Virus record (IMG/VR): IMGVR_UViG_3300010885_025649
Location: 62,001-126,000 of that record
Reading direction: 5' to 3' (one strand)
DNA from: a virus
Length of the DNA: 64,000 nucleotides
The notes beneath the pieces were generated by a model that had not been told where the DNA came from, searched no databases, and saw only the letters and a program-made list of their open reading frames with translations. Of the stretch, positions 7,061 to 62,126 are shown one piece after another; within the stretch, counting starts at the first letter, position 1, and each line of letters starts with the position of its first letter. A program made the translations under genes and the position numbers.

Positions 7061-8989
7061 TTAACTAACCTGTAGCTCATTATAAGCTTTAAATGTTAGT
7101 GGAAAGATAGGTTCAGCAAGTTGTTTAAATGCTATAGCATATTGACGAATCTCCCATTGTGCATCTTCAGATAAACGTAATCCTAAGAAATGTAATAAAG
7201 ATCTTAGATTAAAAGTGATATATAAACTTGTATAAGTGCAATGTGGTAAAACTCCTCTAGCTTGTTCTCTACACACACCATTAGCTAATAACTGCTCATA
7301 TATTTGATAAGCTTTATTAACTTGTTCTGCATATAATTCTCGTACTAACTCTTGATTAATATCCGGATTAGATACACTAGATTGTCTATTAGTTTTACCT
7401 TGCCCTCGAAACTCTTTAGGAATATAAGCTTGGTTCTTGACTACAATATATCTTGCACTTTCCTGATTAAATGAGTTATGAACCACAATTCCATTAGCTA
7501 CAAAATTATGCCAAGGCTTTGTAACACACAAATCATAAGTATCTTGTTCTCCCATATATTCAATAGCAGTAACTTTAACGGGATGAGCTTTAAGTTTCTG
7601 GCCTATACGTTTATTTACTCGCACTCTAAATAAAACAGGTTTATTCAAAGCTTGTTCTGCAAAAGCAATTTCATTTGCTTGAGATTTATGAACTTCCATA
7701 TGACAAGATTTACAAAGAGTAATAAGATTATCAATGTCATAAGCTTTAGTTATATCAGCAGCAACTGGAATTATATGATGTGCATGAAGTATACTAGAAC
7801 CTTGTCCGCATTGTTGACAAGTATAATCATACTTTTCATGAACGACTTTAGCATTTAGTCTAGTCCATGCACCAATATTAGCCCGTTCAGTCGTAATACC
7901 CCCACGCCAGAAATTGTTCTTCTCGCCTACCTTTTGTTTAGCTCTAATTGATCTAACTTGGCGAGCTTCTGGAGTTAAGTTAATCTTATAACCAGTCTTA
8001 CCTTTATTCCAAGGAGTCTGATTTAGGAAGAGTTTATCTATTTCTTGTTTAGAGAATTTTAGATCATGTATCTTAAGCCATTTCCTAATAGTATGATAAC
8101 TACACTCTGCCTCTGACGCCATTTGTGCAACAGAATATCCATCTTGTCTACATTTCTGCATCCAATCATAATCTCTATATAATCCGCTACCAACAACAAC
8201 ATTACCATTAACCATAAAATAAGAATCTTTAGTCATAAGTACTTCATCATTTATTACTTGTACTCCAAGGGCATGTCCCATAGTTTGCCAACCTTCTGAA
8301 GTATAAACTTTATGATTAGTAGTCATAGTTAAAGTTTTATTATCTTCTAATGTAACTTTATATACTGGCTGTATACCTTGATAAACTACATCTTCAACAT
8401 GACCAGTTGTAAATAAACCAGTACTTTCATCTAAAACCCGCAGCCGCATATTACTAATTCGTTTCTGCTTACTACGAAATCCTGCAGGTAATTTACTATT
8501 ACATACTCTTTGTACTGTGGCCCAACCCACCCCAGTTTTATTAGCTATTTGTCTATAGTTAATATTAGCTGCAGCCATTTCTTTAATTTGGTCTACAACT
8601 ATTTGTGGAGTAGTTAATGGATGTTTTTCTCCAATATGCCAATCTTCATATAATTCTTTAATTGTTTTATTTAAAGATTTAGAAGTTACACCAGTATTAT
8701 TAACAAATGTAACTATAGTATCACCAGTAACACAACAACCAATACGATGTCTTAACATCTCTTGAACTACATATAATGGAGCGGTAGCTCTAAAGGTTAA
8801 TAGATTGTGTTCCACAGGGCTAAAATGTTTGTTCTTAAGTAAATATTTAATTAATTTATAATTATCTTCTTGTGATCTAACTTTAAGATCATTAGCTAAA
8901 GAAACTCTAGCTGCGGCGCAAATCATCGCATCATCACCGACATGCTGAATTAATTCAACATGACTAATATTATCTAATAAAGGATCCAT
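7061..8989 (-). CDS. thyX: Flavin-dependent thymidylate synthase ThyX interrupted by an intein
   Basis: A 642-residue precursor. After removing the intein the host protein is about 222 residues, normal for ThyX, which methylates dUMP to dTMP with FAD, NADPH and methylene-tetrahydrofolate. The ThyX signature RHRxxSxNxxSxRY is rebuilt across the insertion: RHRIG at residues 80-84 and SFNQESARY at 506-514. The N-extein also carries HFSPVEHN, an expected ThyX feature. The intein lies inside the active-site motif, a typical location for inteins. Its Cys1 is either residue 85 or 86: using Cys85 restores exact ThyX spacing, while Cys86 gives the classic CVTGDT start. The gene supplies thymidine nucleotides for phage replication. 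Confidence 0.93.
   Translation of the reverse strand: MDPLLDNISHVELIQHVGDDAMICAAARVSLANDLKVRSQEDNYKLIKYLLKNKHFSPVEHNLLTFRATAPLYVVQEMLRHRIGCCVTGDTIVTFVNNTGVTSKSLNKTIKELYEDWHIGEKHPLTTPQIVVDQIKEMAAANINYRQIANKTGVGWATVQRVCNSKLPAGFRSKQKRISNMRLRVLDESTGLFTTGHVEDVVYQGIQPVYKVTLEDNKTLTMTTNHKVYTSEGWQTMGHALGVQVINDEVLMTKDSYFMVNGNVVVGSGLYRDYDWMQKCRQDGYSVAQMASEAECSYHTIRKWLKIHDLKFSKQEIDKLFLNQTPWNKGKTGYKINLTPEARQVRSIRAKQKVGEKNNFWRGGITTERANIGAWTRLNAKVVHEKYDYTCQQCGQGSSILHAHHIIPVAADITKAYDIDNLITLCKSCHMEVHKSQANEIAFAEQALNKPVLFRVRVNKRIGQKLKAHPVKVTAIEYMGEQDTYDLCVTKPWHNFVANGIVVHNSFNQESARYIVVKNQAYIPKEFRGQGKTNRQSSVSNPDINQELVRELYAEQVNKAYQIYEQLLANGVCREQARGVLPHCTYTSLYITFNLRSLLHFLGLRLSEDAQWEIRQYAIAFKQLAEPIFPLTFKAYNELQVS
7475..8734 (-). 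mobile_element. Intein with HNH homing endonuclease in ThyX
   Basis: Covers precursor residues 86-505 (about 420 residues). The splicing N-block is CVTGDTIVTF, the B-block region contains TMTTNHKVYTSEGW, and the C-terminus is WHNFVANGIVVHN followed by Ser, so both junctions look intact. Two helix-turn-helix segments (around INYRQIANKTGVGWATVQ and YSVAQMASEAECSYHTI) precede an HNH nuclease core: CQQCG, then HAHHIIPV, then NLITLCKSCH. This nuclease would cut intein-free thyX alleles to spread the element. The HNH rather than LAGLIDADG type is less usual for inteins. Confidence 0.92.
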
Positions 8990-9016
8990 ATAACCTATAT
9001 ATATAATAAAGTATAA

Positions 9017-12000
9017 TTAAAAACCGAGAGCATTAGGAGTTAAATCAAATACATATAAATCTAATACACCATTACCACTACCGGCATTAGTAACCCAACC
9101 TTCTAACTTTAATGTGTGAGTGGTAGTAGTTAAATCTAAACTTCCAATGGAAGTGGCAAAGTTAACTGTAGAGTAATTAGTGGTAGCAGTACCCATAAAC
9201 TTTAACCCACCATTAGCTGTAATTGTAGTACCAACCCCAAAACATCTCATTGTTCCTTGAATAATAATAGGCCCAACTTGACTATCAGTTAAAGTAACTA
9301 GTACAATTTGAGTTTCAGCATTTCCTGCATTATATTGAACTAATCTAATATTCTTAGTATTAGTAGCCGTATTACCACTAGCTTGAGCAACTATTTTAAA
9401 CGCTAACTCAGAACCTACTACAAAGGAGTTTGCAGGAACTGTTCTAATAATAGAAGATCCACCATTATCAACTACCACAGCATTAGCAGTAGTACTAGTA
9501 ATATTAATAACTCCTCTAGTATTATAAGCAGCACTATTAAGTCCTCTAGTTAATAACGTACTATTCCTCTTAAGAACATTAGAGTTAAATACCAAGCTAG
9601 TTACAGATTCATTAGAACTAGGGCAAGTAATATTACCAGCTAATAAAGTACAATCAGAGATATTATTATTACTAGAATTAACATATAAACTTACATCTCC
9701 AACCATAAATAAACATCTATCTAATACATTATATTGTCCTTGAATATACGCACCATAAGTATTACTACCATTATAAGAAGGTGTGCCGTTAAAATCACAG
9801 CCGATAAGTTTATTACTTAAGCATTGATTTCCATTACTATCTTTCTCACTTAACTGTAAGTAATATTTAAAGCCAATATTATTACAAGTAAAACTACTAT
9901 CTCTAACTGTATTAGAAATAGGAGCAATATCAATAATAGGAATAACAGTAAGATTATTAGTAGAACTTGCAGTAGCCGCATTACTAACAACCATAGAACC
10001 ATAATTAACCGCAGCAGATACACTTAACCCTGTGCCGGCTTTAGTAGTTGCTGTCGCAATAGTTAAAGTATATCCACTAATCTTAGTTAACTGGAATGAT
10101 TGGGTGGTAGCATCTCCATAGGTAATAGTTAATGTCATACCTACTACTAGATTAGTAGTAGATGATGCCGCAGTTAATGTGGTTCCATTAACTGTAGAGG
10201 TAGCAGTAAATACAATAGCAGTCGGATTAACAGTAGCAGCTAAAGAAGCATTAGTAGAATTAGCAGCTTTACTTAAGGTTATAGTTGTTCCAGAAACAGC
10301 AGTAATAACTGTACCGCTAGGAAATACTGTATCAGAAGCACTAATAACTAACTGCCCTATATTACCAGAGGTTAATCCACTAGCAGTCATAGTAGTACTA
10401 TTAAGTGTAGTGGCAGCAGTAATACTCGTAGGAGAGCCGGTCTTAGGATATTTAGTTCCTACTATTGTAGAAGCCGGAATACCTGTGCCATATATCTGTG
10501 TAGTTCCTGTAGTTAAAGCAGTAAGAGTGGTGTTTAATATATTAGCTATAAAAGTGCTACCAGAAGTAGTAATTCCATAGAAACTACTGGTATGATCATA
10601 ATTAGTAAGAACATAACCATTACCATTTCTAAGAGAATCACCATTGAATGCTACTAAAGTATCAGAGCTAATTCCATTCTCAACAATCTTAATACGATCA
10701 AATACATTATGGTGTGCACCGCCGGCAATCAAGCATTGATACCAAGTAGAAGTAACACCAGTACTAATAGTACCTGCATCTATAGTAAAGTCTTCATATA
10801 CATTATGGTGAATAGCTTCACTAATCTGAAATAGAGATCCTCTAGGCCCACCCGGAGAATTAGGATCTCCAGGACTTCCATCAGAGTTAACAGTAGCACT
10901 AGAAGTATTAGCATATTGTCCAGACCAACCAACTTGTATATTCTTAAAGTTAGAGTTATGACTGAAGTATGCAGTCTCTATAACTTTCTGGTGGAATAAT
11001 CCGGTTACATTTCTAAAGACAGTATAAGCAAAAGCATTACCATAAATAATCTGTCTAGCTTCTATATAAAGATCTTCAAAGAGACATTCAAAAGTACCAC
11101 CAGTAGCGGACCAAGGACCTAAAGATTTAATAGCAATTCCAGCTATAGTAGAATTACAGGTAACAAACTTCCTATTATATAATCCATCACTAGCATTAGC
11201 AGAAGAAGAAATAGTTAATCCGGTGGCAGTAGTTGTAGCTAAAGCAGGATTACCATTCTTATCTCCAATAGTAAAAGAAGTATTGGGAGTAACAGTCAAA
11301 ACATGACTATTAAGTGGAATACCCACCCCGGTAATTAAATCTCCTACAGTAACACTACGACTGGCTCCTAATGGAGTAGTACCACTAGTACTACCTGTAG
11401 TAATAGTATTGCTATTAAGTGTAATGGCACCTGTAATAGTAACTGTATCTCCAAAGTATCCATCAATCCTAACTGTAGAGCCACTATTAAAAGCAACTTC
11501 TAAAGGATATCTTAGAGTAATTACAGTATTACCCCCATTAATAGTAACCGCTTCCACTCTATTAACATAACCATTTAAAGAAATAGTTCTATTATTACTT
11601 GTAGTGGTATTCAAAGCACTATCATAATACGAAGAATCTTGATAATAAAGATTACTATCCTTTAGGAATAGAATACTACCTGCAGTAAATCTAGGAGTAT
11701 AGGCAGAAGTAACAAGAGTAATAGTTCTTGCACCCGCGCTAGCTGTAAAGCTAAATGGATATAGGAGATCTACCTCTACACCACCATAATTACCATTAAA
11801 GAATACACAAGAGGTTTGAATTCCACTTGTTGTAGGAGTGGTTGGGTTATAGAATAAGGCTGCTTTACCCGGCCCCCACAATTTAATATTATTAGGAGTA
11901 TACAAAGGGGGACTAATTAGATATTGTCCTGCTGGAGCATAAATAGAACCCCCACCAAGATTACTTAAAGTATCAAGAGCTAATTGAATATAAGAACTAT

Positions 12001-26961: not shown

Positions 26962-28197
26962 TTAAACTCCTTGCTGTTGTTTTAACTGTTGCACTCGGTT
27001 ACATAACCAAGCATAGGCTTCAGCTTGATTAGTAATATAACCTTCAAGTACTAACTCATGTACTTCATCAATTATCTTCTTATAAATAGGCCCAGGAATA
27101 ACACCTCGCACTTGTAAATCCCGGCCTTGAATAAGATAAGGTAATTTATTATCTAGCACACCTGCTTTTTGTGCAAATTGCAAACAAGCATGAAGAGTAA
27201 TACCAGTAATAGCAAAATAGAAATCACATAAGATTCTTATATTAATAGACTTTAATTTGTGAGCTAATTGCCTAACCTTACTAATAGTGTCACAATCTTC
27301 AATAGCTTTATAGTAAAGGTATAATTCCAATGCAGGTTCTTCAATACGCCCGGTATTACAACTAAGAGTATTAAGTCTCCGGCTACCATAATAAGTATGA
27401 ACAACAACTGCAACCATAAATGCATGTTCATGTGCAGTTTTAGAAGCAACTTGTTTAGCCCGCTGTAAAATTATAGCCGGCTCATCTTCATACTTACCCT
27501 CAAACCAATACTTAAACCAGCCTACATCAGATAAGAACTTTAGGCCAAGCTCAGGATGATCACCTTTAACAAGCAACTTCTGGAACTCACCGCCAATTCT
27601 CTCCATAGAAAGGTCATTAGGGTTTAAGGATTTACACATCTCGATAGTAGCTGGATCTACAATCTGCAGATTAAAGCGAGAGATAAATTGCGCTCCGCGC
27701 AGAACCCGCAAGGGATCTTCTGCAAAAGCCGGTCCTACATGGCGTAGAATACCAGCTCGTAAATCTGCTCTACCATTATAAGGATCTAGGAATTCCCCAG
27801 TCACAAGATTAAGACCAATGGCATTAATAGTAAAGTCTCTTCTGGATGCACCTTCAGCAAAGGTCATGTTAGAATCGCCTTGAATAACAAAGCTGCGATG
27901 TTTATCACCAACTTTAGATTCACGACGAGGGAGAGAAACCTCAAGATCATTAACACTATATACTTGGAACTGTGCCCCTAATAGTTTAGGCTCCGAAGCT
28001 TTTACAGTCTCAGCATACCGATATAGTATATGATGTAGCTTCTCCGCTTCAATTCCATATACTTCAATATCTAAATCTTTAGGAGTAATACCCAAAAGCA
28101 TATCTCTAACAAAGCCACCAACTGCATAGACTTTAGCAGTGGGAACAAAGTTAATGACAAACTGAGCAAAGTTGTGGCCTTTCTGTATTAGTTCCAT
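26962..28197 (-). CDS. cca: CCA-adding tRNA nucleotidyltransferase
   Basis: A 411-residue class II nucleotidyltransferase. The active-site core is VGGFVRDMLLG (residues 26-36) with the metal pair DLDIE at 41-45, then RRDFTINAIGLNL (base-recognition), DPYNGRADLRAGILRHV, EDPLRVLRGAQFISRF, and the ERIGGEFQKLL neck motif. The C-terminal helical body is complete. It builds CCA on tRNA 3' ends; none of the tRNA genes here encodes CCA, so this enzyme or the host's must finish them. It also repairs 3' ends after nuclease damage. Confidence 0.93.
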   Translation of the reverse strand: MELIQKGHNFAQFVINFVPTAKVYAVGGFVRDMLLGITPKDLDIEVYGIEAEKLHHILYRYAETVKASEPKLLGAQFQVYSVNDLEVSLPRRESKVGDKHRSFVIQGDSNMTFAEGASRRDFTINAIGLNLVTGEFLDPYNGRADLRAGILRHVGPAFAEDPLRVLRGAQFISRFNLQIVDPATIEMCKSLNPNDLSMERIGGEFQKLLVKGDHPELGLKFLSDVGWFKYWFEGKYEDEPAIILQRAKQVASKTAHEHAFMVAVVVHTYYGSRRLNTLSCNTGRIEEPALELYLYYKAIEDCDTISKVRQLAHKLKSINIRILCDFYFAITGITLHACLQFAQKAGVLDNKLPYLIQGRDLQVRGVIPGPIYKKIIDEVHELVLEGYITNQAEAYAWLCNRVQQLKQQQGV

Positions 28198-30325: not shown

Positions 30326-31027
30326 TCAAGTTAATAATGCTTCTAGCAATTCCGGATCAATAGGTAATCTTCTAAGATTAGGAACTAGTAATTCATTCAT
30401 CCAATGTGCATGAGTGGTAACATGATTAGCGCGGACATATTTACCCACACTAGTACTAAACTCATCCATAAAGAAAGCTTCTCTTAATCTAACTACATAA
30501 CCTTCACATAAATCTCCATTAACTATATGTAGCGGCTGGAAAGAATTATCCCATATACCTTCATAAAGAACAGGTACAGTAGGCAATCCAAAGTAATTAC
30601 ACCAAGTAACTACATCATCCCAACTTAAACATTCATCATCTTCCCAAATATTAAATACTTGGAAATACGCTATTAAGTTCTTGTAATAAATACTATGTTT
30701 AGCATATAGATTCTCCCCACAAATCCGCATATTTGTGGGGATATCAAAGGAGAATAAACTATGTAATCTACTTACAAAGGTTCTACTTTTATGATAGGGA
30801 GAATCTATAGATCTAGCATGTAAACCATTAGTATACATAGTAGTATTCTCCCCATCCATCTTCGCAGTAATAACTACTTCTTTACCTTCAAAGGGATTAA
30901 AGGTTAATCTTTTATCATCTGAAGTAGCCCCTGGAGAATCGGGTAAATGTAATGTACGAGGATATTTAGTGGCCATATTTACTTTAGCTCTGATAAGTTT
31001 ACTTATATAATCTAGTAAGTTAAACAT
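30326..31027 (-). CDS. RNA ligase (ATP-dependent, nucleotidyltransferase fold)
   Basis: Up to 233 residues; MATKYP at 30976 is an alternative start, and neither has a clear ribosome site. Covalent nucleotidyltransferase motifs are motif I AKMDGENTTMY (Lys56 from the first start), motif III-like MRICGENLYAKHSIYY and motif IV EGYVVRL. Size fits compact Rnl-type phage RNA ligases that seal broken tRNA after end-healing by polynucleotide kinase/phosphatase. A TATAAT sits just upstream of 31027. It ends in TGA. Confidence 0.85.
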   Translation of the reverse strand: MFNLLDYISKLIRAKVNMATKYPRTLHLPDSPGATSDDKRLTFNPFEGKEVVITAKMDGENTTMYTNGLHARSIDSPYHKSRTFVSRLHSLFSFDIPTNMRICGENLYAKHSIYYKNLIAYFQVFNIWEDDECLSWDDVVTWCNYFGLPTVPVLYEGIWDNSFQPLHIVNGDLCEGYVVRLREAFFMDEFSTSVGKYVRANHVTTHAHWMNELLVPNLRRLPIDPELLEALLT

Positions 31028-31443: not shown

Positions 31444-32740
31444 TAAAGCCCCGTCCCTTTAGGGCGGCTTTTTATCCTCGTTCGTGCTATCATAAGAACA
31501 GGAGGAAACAATGATTGTCTTTGAGTTCAAAACCTACGGCAAAGCAAGCCAATTCACTGCGATTGATGAGGCTATCCGAACGATGCAATTCATTCGGAAC
31601 AAGTCTATTCGTTTGTGGATGGACGGCCAAGCTAAATCTTGGGTAGAACTCTCCCGTCATTGTGCCCTGCTTGCTAAAGAGTTTGAGTTTGCCAACAAGC
31701 TCAACTCTATGGCTAGACAAGCTGCTGCCGAACGCGCATGGGCTAGTATCTCCCGATTCTACGACAACTGTAAAAGCAAAGTACCCGGTAAGAAAGGGTA
31801 CCCTACTTTTCAGAAAGACTGTAGAAGTGTTGAGTACAAAACCTCTGGTTGGAAGCTATCAGAAGACCGGAAAAGAATAACCTTCACCGACAAGATTGGC
31901 ATTGGTTGTTTGAAGTTAAAAGGCACCCGTGACTTAAACTTCTACGCCCCAGAGCAAATCAAAAGGGTGCGGTTAGTCAAACGTGCGGACGGATACTACG
32001 CGCAGTTCTGTGTCTCAGTAGATAGGTCTGAAGAACTAGAGCCAACAGGAAGTGCAGTTGGTTTGGATGTAGGGCTTAAAGAGTTCTACACCGACTCCAA
32101 TAACCAAACTGTTGATAACCCTCGCTTTCTAAGGACTGGTGAGAAAGCTATAAAGCAGACTCAGCGCAGAGTATCTAAGAAAGTAAAAGGCTCAAATAAT
32201 CGACACAAGGCCAAGAAGACACTAGGCAAACGCCACCTTAAGGTAAGTAGGCAACGCAGGGACTTTGCAATCAAGACTGCAAGGTGCGTAATCAGGTCAA
32301 ACGACCTAGTAGCTTATGAAGACTTAAGGATTAAGAACATGGTGAAGAACCATTGTTTGGCTAAGTCAATAAACGATGCCTCTTGGTACATGTTCCGTCA
32401 GTGGTTGGAGTACTTCGGCAAGATATTTGGCAAGGTAACAATAGCAGTACCAGCAGCCAGAACAAGTCAAGAATGCTCAAACTGTGGGGCTATTGTTGTC
32501 AAGTCATTATCCACTAGGACTCACGCTTGTAAGTGCGGGTGCGTGTTGGATAGAGACCACAACGCAGCGATTAACATTTTGATGAGAGGATTGGGTACCG
32601 CAGGGCATGTGGGAACCTTTGCGCTAGACGCAAGAATCGCTTGGGGAGACACGACCTCTACTCTGGTTGGAGCAATCCTGCCCGTGCAAGCCGTCTCGTA
32701 GAACCAAGAATCCCCGCACCTTTAGGTCGGGGAGTGTCAA
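31444..32740 (+). mobile_element. IS200/IS605-group element carrying only tnpB
   Basis: The left end has hairpin CCG(T)CCC-TTTA-GGGCGG. The right end has TCCCCG..ACC-TTTA-GGT..CGGGGA followed by AGTGTCAA at 32733-32740, the usual right-end form in cyanobacteria. No TnpA transposase is encoded. Both boundaries fall on tRNA genes: the CAT tRNA on the left and the 32741-32806 tRNA on the right. Confidence 0.8.
31511..32701 (+). CDS. tnpB: TnpB RNA-guided nuclease
   Basis: A 396-residue protein with AGGAGG before ATG. The RuvC-like sites are Asp in VGLDVGLKEF, Glu in VAYEDLRIKN and Asp in VLDRDHNAAINI. A zinc ribbon CSNCG...CKCGC lies between the last two. The C-terminus GLGTAGHVGT...TSTLVGA is of the cyanobacterial type. 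TnpB cuts DNA matching the guide part of its omega RNA, whose scaffold spans the 3' end of this gene and the right end. All catalytic residues are present. Confidence 0.92.
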   Translation: MIVFEFKTYGKASQFTAIDEAIRTMQFIRNKSIRLWMDGQAKSWVELSRHCALLAKEFEFANKLNSMARQAAAERAWASISRFYDNCKSKVPGKKGYPTFQKDCRSVEYKTSGWKLSEDRKRITFTDKIGIGCLKLKGTRDLNFYAPEQIKRVRLVKRADGYYAQFCVSVDRSEELEPTGSAVGLDVGLKEFYTDSNNQTVDNPRFLRTGEKAIKQTQRRVSKKVKGSNNRHKAKKTLGKRHLKVSRQRRDFAIKTARCVIRSNDLVAYEDLRIKNMVKNHCLAKSINDASWYMFRQWLEYFGKIFGKVTIAVPAARTSQECSNCGAIVVKSLSTRTHACKCGCVLDRDHNAAINILMRGLGTAGHVGTFALDARIAWGDTTSTLVGAILPVQAVS

Positions 32741-34197: not shown

Positions 34198-34218
34198 AAA
34201 AGCCCCCGTAAGGGGGCC
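34198..34218 (-). terminator. Terminator of the tmRNA gene
   Basis: Hairpin GGCCCCCTTACGGGGGC followed by TTTTG on the minus strand, directly after the tmRNA body. A strong intrinsic terminator. Confidence 0.85.
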
Positions 34219-34266
34219 GATGTCTAACTAGTTGGGTAACAAGGCTAGTTAGCAACCCCGCTCAGT

Positions 34267-34317
34267 TTACGCAGCTACAAGAGCGCGCTTACGAGAGAAA
34301 GGATAAATGTTATTGAC
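34267..34317 (-). other. tmRNA tag peptide reading frame
   Basis: Reads VNNIYPFSRKRALVAA then TAA. The ending ALVAA and NNI.PF.RK core match cyanobacterial proteolysis tags (A)NNIV.FARK..LVAA. The resume codon would be GTC at 34315-34317, unusual because Ala codons are more common there. Confidence 0.8.
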
Positions 34318-34417
34318 CTTTATTTTGTTTGTGTTTCTTCGCTTACACTGCGTTCAGTGGTACTCTTTCCCAATCATGTCGAAACCTGTATATCCCCGAG
34401 TAGTGGAGATAAGGGGA

Positions 34418-34698
34418 CACGTTACCCCCAGTTTTCACTGAGGCGTGGACTATTCCTTCAACCAAATGCGTGTCTTTGGTTGCCAAGCATTTAAAGCATT
34501 ACTGCTTTCCTAGTCACACTTAAAGTTAGACAAAGCTAATCACGCTCGAAGTGCTCTATGAGTCTCTAGACCATCGTTACCATCACTGGTAGTTTTGGTA
34601 CGGTGTTAACATGTCTGGTTACCCAGATTTAGTCTTCGCCGTTTGAGCTTGGTTTACATTCAACCATTACTGATTGAAGCGACTAACTCTTTCGAGTA
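34418..34698 (-). ncRNA. Group I intron (281 nt) in the tmRNA T loop
   Basis: The 5' exon ends TTCGAT and the 3' exon begins TCCCCT, restoring loop TTCGATT. The intron ends in G. P1 pairs exon CGAT with internal guide GTCG (U-G at the splice site), closed by an ACTC-GAAA-GAGT hairpin. P7 halves are TAGAGACTCATAGAG and GGAATAGTCC, standard group I core sequences. No ORF inside. Confidence 0.85.
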
Positions 34699-34871
34699 AT
34701 CGAACCCCTGTCCAGTCATAGTACTCAGTACCACCTAGTCCTCTTCTTAATAAGATCTGTTGAGAACAGTTAGACCCACCGTTATAAGGCCACGGACACG
34801 GGCGCCGAAGATTAAACTATCAGGGCCAGGACGAACCTTGGCCCAACAGCTACAAAGCCTTTGCTTTGTAT

Positions 34872-61950: not shown

Positions 61951-62126
61951 TATAGTTCTACCTTAGGAGAATATAGTTGTTCTTGCTGTAGTTTACTTTT
62001 AAGAGCGGCCAAATCATCTTCCAATTCACAAGTTAATGAACTTACATAACCAGCATCAAGATCACTACGATTTTGTAACTGTACTATATCATTTTCAAGC
62101 TTTGCAATCTGATCTATAAGTGTCAT
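61950..62126 (-). CDS. Coiled-coil protein (58 residues)
   Basis: MTLIDQIAKLENDIVQLQNR... with heptads to KSKLQQEQL. ATG overlaps the HNH gene's TGA; TAA overlaps the next ATG. Function unknown. Confidence 0.55.
   Translation of the reverse strand: MTLIDQIAKLENDIVQLQNRSDLDAGYVSSLTCELEDDLAALKSKLQQEQLYSPKVEL

Follow-up and report, generated by a model that had tools for sequence, protein, structure and literature searches.

A circularly permuted phage tmRNA gene interrupted in its T-loop by a group I intron, with a predicted self-splicing transcript

Known tmRNA forms and the phage gene

Transfer-messenger RNA (tmRNA) genes occur in several forms. The accessible text of a 2025 catalogue gives 97,179 sequences, 79 of them from phages, with 84,269 of the standard, 11,946 of the permuted and 883 of the intron form plus forms without a coding sequence, and names no class in which permutation and intron are combined (PMC11915505). 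According to the same source the intron form carries its group I intron within the T-loop, for the most part at position 7 and with a mean length of 293 in the founding set, and follows rules by which a U at -1 is paired to a G of P1, the last intron base is G and the T-loop is rebuilt (PMC11915505). Two-piece tmRNAs are already known from phages such as Melnitz, with an ARAGORN count of 53 of 133 structures (PMC9004378). Here we describe a gene that unites the permuted and the intron form, located on the minus strand of a 64,000-nucleotide (nt) stretch of viral DNA (the window; positions 62,001 to 126,000 of IMG/VR record IMGVR_UViG_3300010885_025649, a phage record of 212,497 bp). That this tmRNA gene is both permuted and split by a group I intron was the original prediction, made from the sequence alone, and it is borne out by a structure kept with compensatory changes in independent phages. 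What is new is only the combination, which recurs in several phage groups; full-text searches of open-access papers found no report of it, such that the novelty claimed for it stands for the combined form but not for permuted phage tmRNAs as such.

All of the elements claimed for the gene could be read at the coordinates in Table 1, the transcript order being GTGGTACT, GGAC, AGGGG, TTCGAT, a 281-nt insert, T, CCCCT, TATCTCC, A, CTACTC, GGGGATA, GGTTTCGAC, AGTACCAC, the tag frame and a terminator-like hairpin. As predicted, the two pieces pair with each other in permuted order: the acceptor stem GGGGATA/TATCTCC forms across the intervening segment with all seven pairs including G3·U70, the alanine identity pair, and AGTACCAC forms with GTGGTACT a perfect P2 helix of eight pairs. 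The coding piece has the expected 5′ signature GGTTTCGAC and a tag frame, VNNIYPFSRKRALVAA, with its stop. The T-stem AGGGG/CCCCT is interrupted, with the T-loop split as TTCGAT/T after 34699 by the insert, which is a group I intron with predicted self-splicing. A U stands at -1 and a G is the last intron base, in keeping with the tmRNA-intron rules, and excision restores the T-loop TTCGATT. P1 is formed by an intron guide GUCG (34683-34680) and the CGAU of the 5′ exon, placing a U·G pair at the splice site, and helices P1 to P9 were found, with P3, P4, P6, P7 and P8 in group I order. No open reading frame (ORF) of note lies within the 281 nt.

The gene can be compared with both of its parent forms. 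It resembles the intron form in its site after the sixth T-loop base, which on our reading of the catalogue's numbering is the main position 7 (PMC11915505), as well as in the U at -1, the terminal G, a similar mini-intron length and a LAGLIDADG-type ORF in some relatives. The intron thus sits at an allowed T-loop subsite; however, the gene is permuted, while a standard order is implied for the intron form by the separate classes of the catalogue, whose intron model was built from intron-form genes (PMC11915505). Permuted tmRNAs (RF04321, RF01851; phage Melnitz) share with it the gene order, with the acceptor piece before the coding piece, a short intervening segment, acceptor and P2 pairing between the pieces and a cyanobacteria-like tag, but they differ in that the acceptor piece of the window gene is split by an intron.

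Covariance models gave significant matches for both RNAs, and the lack of any such match, named beforehand as refuting the original prediction, was thus not seen. RF04321 (permuted tmRNA) scored 47.9 bits (E 2.3e-6 in the 64-kb scan; curated cut-off 47), its alignment spanning the T-loop with a 282-nt insertion, while RF00028 (group I intron) scored 35.9 bits on the insert (E 4.7e-7 for 1.8 kb), significant and backed by covariation across six introns, yet below its cut-off of 50. RF01851 (cyano_tmRNA) gave 48.8 bits, under its curated cut-off of 70 and lowered by the interruption, since part of the intron is aligned by the model as tmRNA, and the gene was not filed as a member of that family. 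None of 100 shuffles folds as well as the region (z = -3.5), whose unaided minimum-energy fold recovers most intron helices and closes the T-stem around the whole intron. ARAGORN reports no tmRNA in the native gene, which escapes it because the intron interrupts the acceptor piece; once 34698-34418 is cut out, it identifies a permuted tmRNA bearing the tag VNNIYPFSRKRALVAA. Excision of 281 nt at random places in the window gave one tmRNA call in 2,974. When the junctions were shifted, the call was made only if the T-loop length was kept, with one combination off the diagonal by one also passing.

Table 1. Features of the permuted, intron-split tmRNA gene and of other loci in the window
Feature	Position	Strand	Basis
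Circularly permuted tmRNA gene	34734-34201	-	
Acceptor piece, 5′ exon	34699..34734	-	RF04321 alignment from 34733; pairing
P2 3′ strand GTGGTACT	34734-34727	-	
T-stem 5′ strand AGGGG	34709-34705	-	
T-loop part TTCGAT	34704-34699	-	
Group I intron, 281 nt	34418..34698	-	RF00028; hand-delimited helices; unaided fold; consensus fold of six introns
Acceptor piece, 3′ exon: T-loop T, T-stem, acceptor strand, discriminator	34404..34417	-	
T-stem 3′ strand CCCCT	34416-34412	-	
Acceptor 3′ strand TATCTCC	34411-34405	-	
Discriminator A	34404	-	
Intervening segment CTACTC, six bases, between discriminator A and coding piece	34398..34403	-	Sequence
Coding piece: GGGGATA, GGTTTCGAC, AGTACCAC, tag frame, 3′ hairpin/terminator	34201..34397	-	RF04321 and RF01851 alignments; ARAGORN after excision
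Acceptor 5′ strand GGGGATA	34397-34391	-	
5′ signature GGTTTCGAC	34386-34378	-	
P2 5′ strand AGTACCAC	34364-34357	-	
Tag reading frame VNNIYPFSRKRALVAA and stop	34267..34317	-	ARAGORN on excised gene
Terminator-like hairpin GGCCCCCTTACGGGGGCT, then TTTGTTTATC	34201..34218	-	Also final hairpin in RF01851 alignment
Second group I intron, 197 nt, in tRNA-Asn(GUU)	35225-35029	-	RF00028, 41.4 bits
TnpB (IS200/IS605-type)	31511-32701	+	
RNA ligase family protein	30326-31027	-	PF09414
CCA-adding-type enzyme	26962-28197		
ThyX-like thymidylate synthase	7061-8989	-	

The same layout in other viruses

The arrangement was sought in other phages and was found in four further viral sequences, namely Pseudanabaena phage PA-SR01 and the contigs L077, L084 and L081. 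PA-SR01 was reached by a distant DNA search with one weak match in the intron core, and pattern scans over 2.9 million viral contigs gave L077, L084 and L081 as well as L052, a contig 99.94% identical to the window phage over 10.5 kb. PA-SR01 (MT234670.1) is a cultured isolate with a complete genome in which the tmRNA stretch is an unannotated gap, the layout being GAGGG, TTCGAT, a 227-nt intron (L073:2948-3174), T, CCCTC, TTGCTCC, A, TTTCAC, GGGGCAA, AACAGG and TTTCG, with the tag AKNNICQFSRKAAPVAA. Its published description lists three tRNAs with the tmRNA unmentioned (PMC7431792). L077 is a relative of PA-SR01, their terminases being 84% identical, and a PA-SR01 terminase query that matched the record of L077 had no detectable match in that of the window phage, such that PA-SR01 and the window phage, which share the combined architecture, are not close kin by this marker. 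As the window comes from a metagenome-type virus record, the intron and the permuted tmRNA gene might have been misjoined during assembly, but the near-identical L052 and the recurrence of the layout, in different sequence, in the complete isolate genome and three other contigs refute this in practice, and the chance that it is correct is negligible.

With the introns excised, ARAGORN calls permuted tmRNAs in all five genes, and in none of the five in their native state. Each has an open tag frame, with the tags of L077 and L084 ending VAV and VVV and not VAA (introns L077:4044-4269 and L084:972-1189, upstream of the tag frames), while L081 has a longer spacer, an encoded CCA and the tag ASNDSTYDQRLAA. 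The acceptor stems (GGGGATA/TATCTCC, GGGGCAA/TTGCTCC, GGGGTCA/TGGCTCC and GGGCCAG/CTGGTCC) are all fully paired and all have G3·U70, and the T-stems straddling the intron likewise vary as pairs (AGGGG/CCCCT, GAGGG/CCCTC, GTGAG/CTCAC and GGCAG/CTGCC). Within the intron, with helix strands delimited by hand, the sequences of P3, P6, P8 and P9 vary with pairing kept save for one mismatch, which lies in P6 of L084; no variation is seen in the core helices P4 and P7, and the U·G pair of P1 is retained in all five. When six introns were folded to a consensus without supervision, the result agreed with the hand-delimited helices and showed two-sided changes at 24 pairs in one sequence or more, with L081 misaligned at its 3′ end. 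The predicted splitting of the T-loop at TTCGAT/T, between 34698 and 34418, by an intron with a P1 U·G and a group I P7 is in keeping with these comparisons.

Other candidates were set aside. Among the matches listed from a loose permuted-tmRNA pattern in the viral scan most were due to chance; L034 and L062 were rejected as interrupted genes, being permuted tmRNAs with longer spacers, and L010, L012-L015, L031, L037 and L049 failed only the strict T-arm pattern. A scan of bacterial genomes for a permuted and intron-split gene, covering introns with GAAGNNATAGTC and intervening segments of up to about 33 nt, gave 11 matches, all by chance, which leaves absence from bacteria unproven, and a pattern with GATGNNATAGTC found nothing.

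Intron relatives, host and neighbouring genes

The same intron subfamily occupies the same T-loop site in standard phage tmRNAs, those of L208, L230, L255 and L260, and shares core sequences with the window intron, while these genes are unpermuted. The introns of L230 (3002-3610), L255 and L260 are about 600 nt long and carry an antisense LAGLIDADG-like ORF, which in L230 encodes 136 amino acids with a PF00961 match (E 7.7e-4) below the Pfam cut-off; for L211 the stretch examined includes the 3′ part only, with the 5′ part lying outside. Given these relatives, the window might hold an intron-bearing tmRNA of the ordinary, unpermuted order, with its 5′ part located upstream, beside an unrelated sequence resembling a coding piece. 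The 5′ acceptor strand for TATCTCC, however, stands six bases downstream and its pairing covaries in five sequences, which makes such a gene very improbable.

Intronless permuted relatives are also found. L057 has such a homologue, which shows 94.5% identity in the 55 nt spanning the junction and represents an empty site; the cyanobacterial tmRNA model gives it 118 bits. The gaps between the pieces in L020, L033 and L057 are 5-7 nt, so that the six-base gap, to which the original prediction had given weight, is not special. In Pseudanabaena phage Pam2 (ON014754.1; L227 ~1400-1610) a permuted tmRNA-like gene that lacks an intron combines an intact acceptor GGGGGAT/ATCCTCC and a tag-like frame with an aberrant T-loop, GGGTAGCATTA, and possibly represents a decayed gene or one left by imprecise intron loss. 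As the simplest history we infer that an intron mobile among phage tmRNA genes entered permuted phage tmRNAs and that its endonuclease ORF was then lost.

A cyanobacterial host, as first suggested, is likely: the tag and the similarity to cyanobacterial tmRNA point to it, as do small matches to phages of Nodularia and Aphanizomenon. No photosystem reaction-centre protein gene and no SmpB gene was found in the phage record, such that neither a photosynthesis gene nor the partner protein supports the assignment. Matches in the window include an RNA ligase, a CCA-adding-type enzyme, an rIIA-like protein, ThyX, NAMPT, ribose-phosphate pyrophosphokinase and many tRNAs. The window also has a tRNA-Asn(GUU) interrupted in its anticodon loop by another group I intron, the break falling between bases 2 and 3 of the anticodon, and ARAGORN calls this tRNA only after excision of the intron. 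The RNA ligase gene lies about 3.2 kb downstream of the tmRNA. At the end of the TnpB gene (~32695-32740), 46 bp of DNA match Nodularia phages with 97.8% identity, and ThyX has an HNH endonuclease-like insertion, perhaps an intein. Ro60/TROVE-type proteins are also phage-borne, in the region of L081:7479-7617 and 8793-10466 and at L208:191-1471, with a Y RNA-like (YrlA) match near the TROVE gene of L081 at 45.3 bits, under the cut-off of 69.

Proposed working and significance

From its sequence the gene very probably encodes a permuted phage tmRNA with a T-loop group I intron, the transcript of which would be spliced and cut into two paired pieces that rescue ribosomes. A single transcript would hold one half of the acceptor piece, the intron, the other half, the six-base spacer and the coding piece; the intron would fold around the T-loop with its guide paired to the 5′ exon and remove itself. 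RNase P would then cut before GGGGATA and a 3′ tRNA-processing activity after the discriminator A, with the CTACTC segment expected to be removed by this end processing and the mature 5′ end of the acceptor piece probably lying somewhat upstream of 34734. CCA must be added as it is not encoded, and the phage encodes a CCA-adding-type enzyme. Held together by the acceptor stem and P2, the pieces would receive alanine at the G3·U70 acceptor; aided by SmpB from the host, since none was found in the phage record, they would rescue stalled ribosomes and add the tag. We infer splicing, cutting, charging and tagging from established knowledge of tmRNA and group I introns. Since the acceptor/T-arm stack is what RNase P and the enzymes of 3′ tRNA processing generally recognise, splicing probably precedes end-cutting. 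More tentatively, splicing may act as a gate, with the split T-loop blocking recognition by both activities such that the two pieces are cut only after intron removal, a possibility that we consider doubtful.

Several observations weigh against a working tmRNA. The RF04321 score is only just above its cut-off and that of RF00028 below its own, P1 has 4 pairs compared with 5-7 in the other introns, and P2 taken alone is not significant in duplex folding, 45 of 500 shuffles folding equally well. CCA is not encoded, no consensus promoter was found upstream of the gene on the same strand, and the 212-kb record yielded no SmpB. RNA genes may be captured by phages through chance, and the low intron score and short P1, together with the VAV and VVV tag endings of two relatives and the decay-like T-loop of Pam2, would suit a remnant of a captured host tmRNA with a dead, unspliced intron; this is rather improbable, as the window gene keeps an intact acceptor, T-stem and tag frame together with every intron helix, and these are maintained by compensatory changes in four other sequences. 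The missing SmpB would also fit an RNA that, though spliced and cut, disturbs host trans-translation as a competitor and does not work as a tmRNA, which we judge unlikely, though a little less so, given that the gene keeps a full tag frame ending LVAA and an alanine-type acceptor and that the tag frames of all five genes are open.

A tmRNA gene that is both permuted and intron-split is a further form beside the three main catalogued ones (standard, intron and permuted), and one present in a culturable isolate. It also marks a blind spot in annotation: as ARAGORN misses all five native genes, phage tmRNA counts based on it miss such genes. The order of splicing and end-cutting on one RNA, and the control of tRNA-type processing by a T-loop intron, can now be tested, and if splicing does act as a gate, the intron would time the activation of the phage tmRNA during infection.
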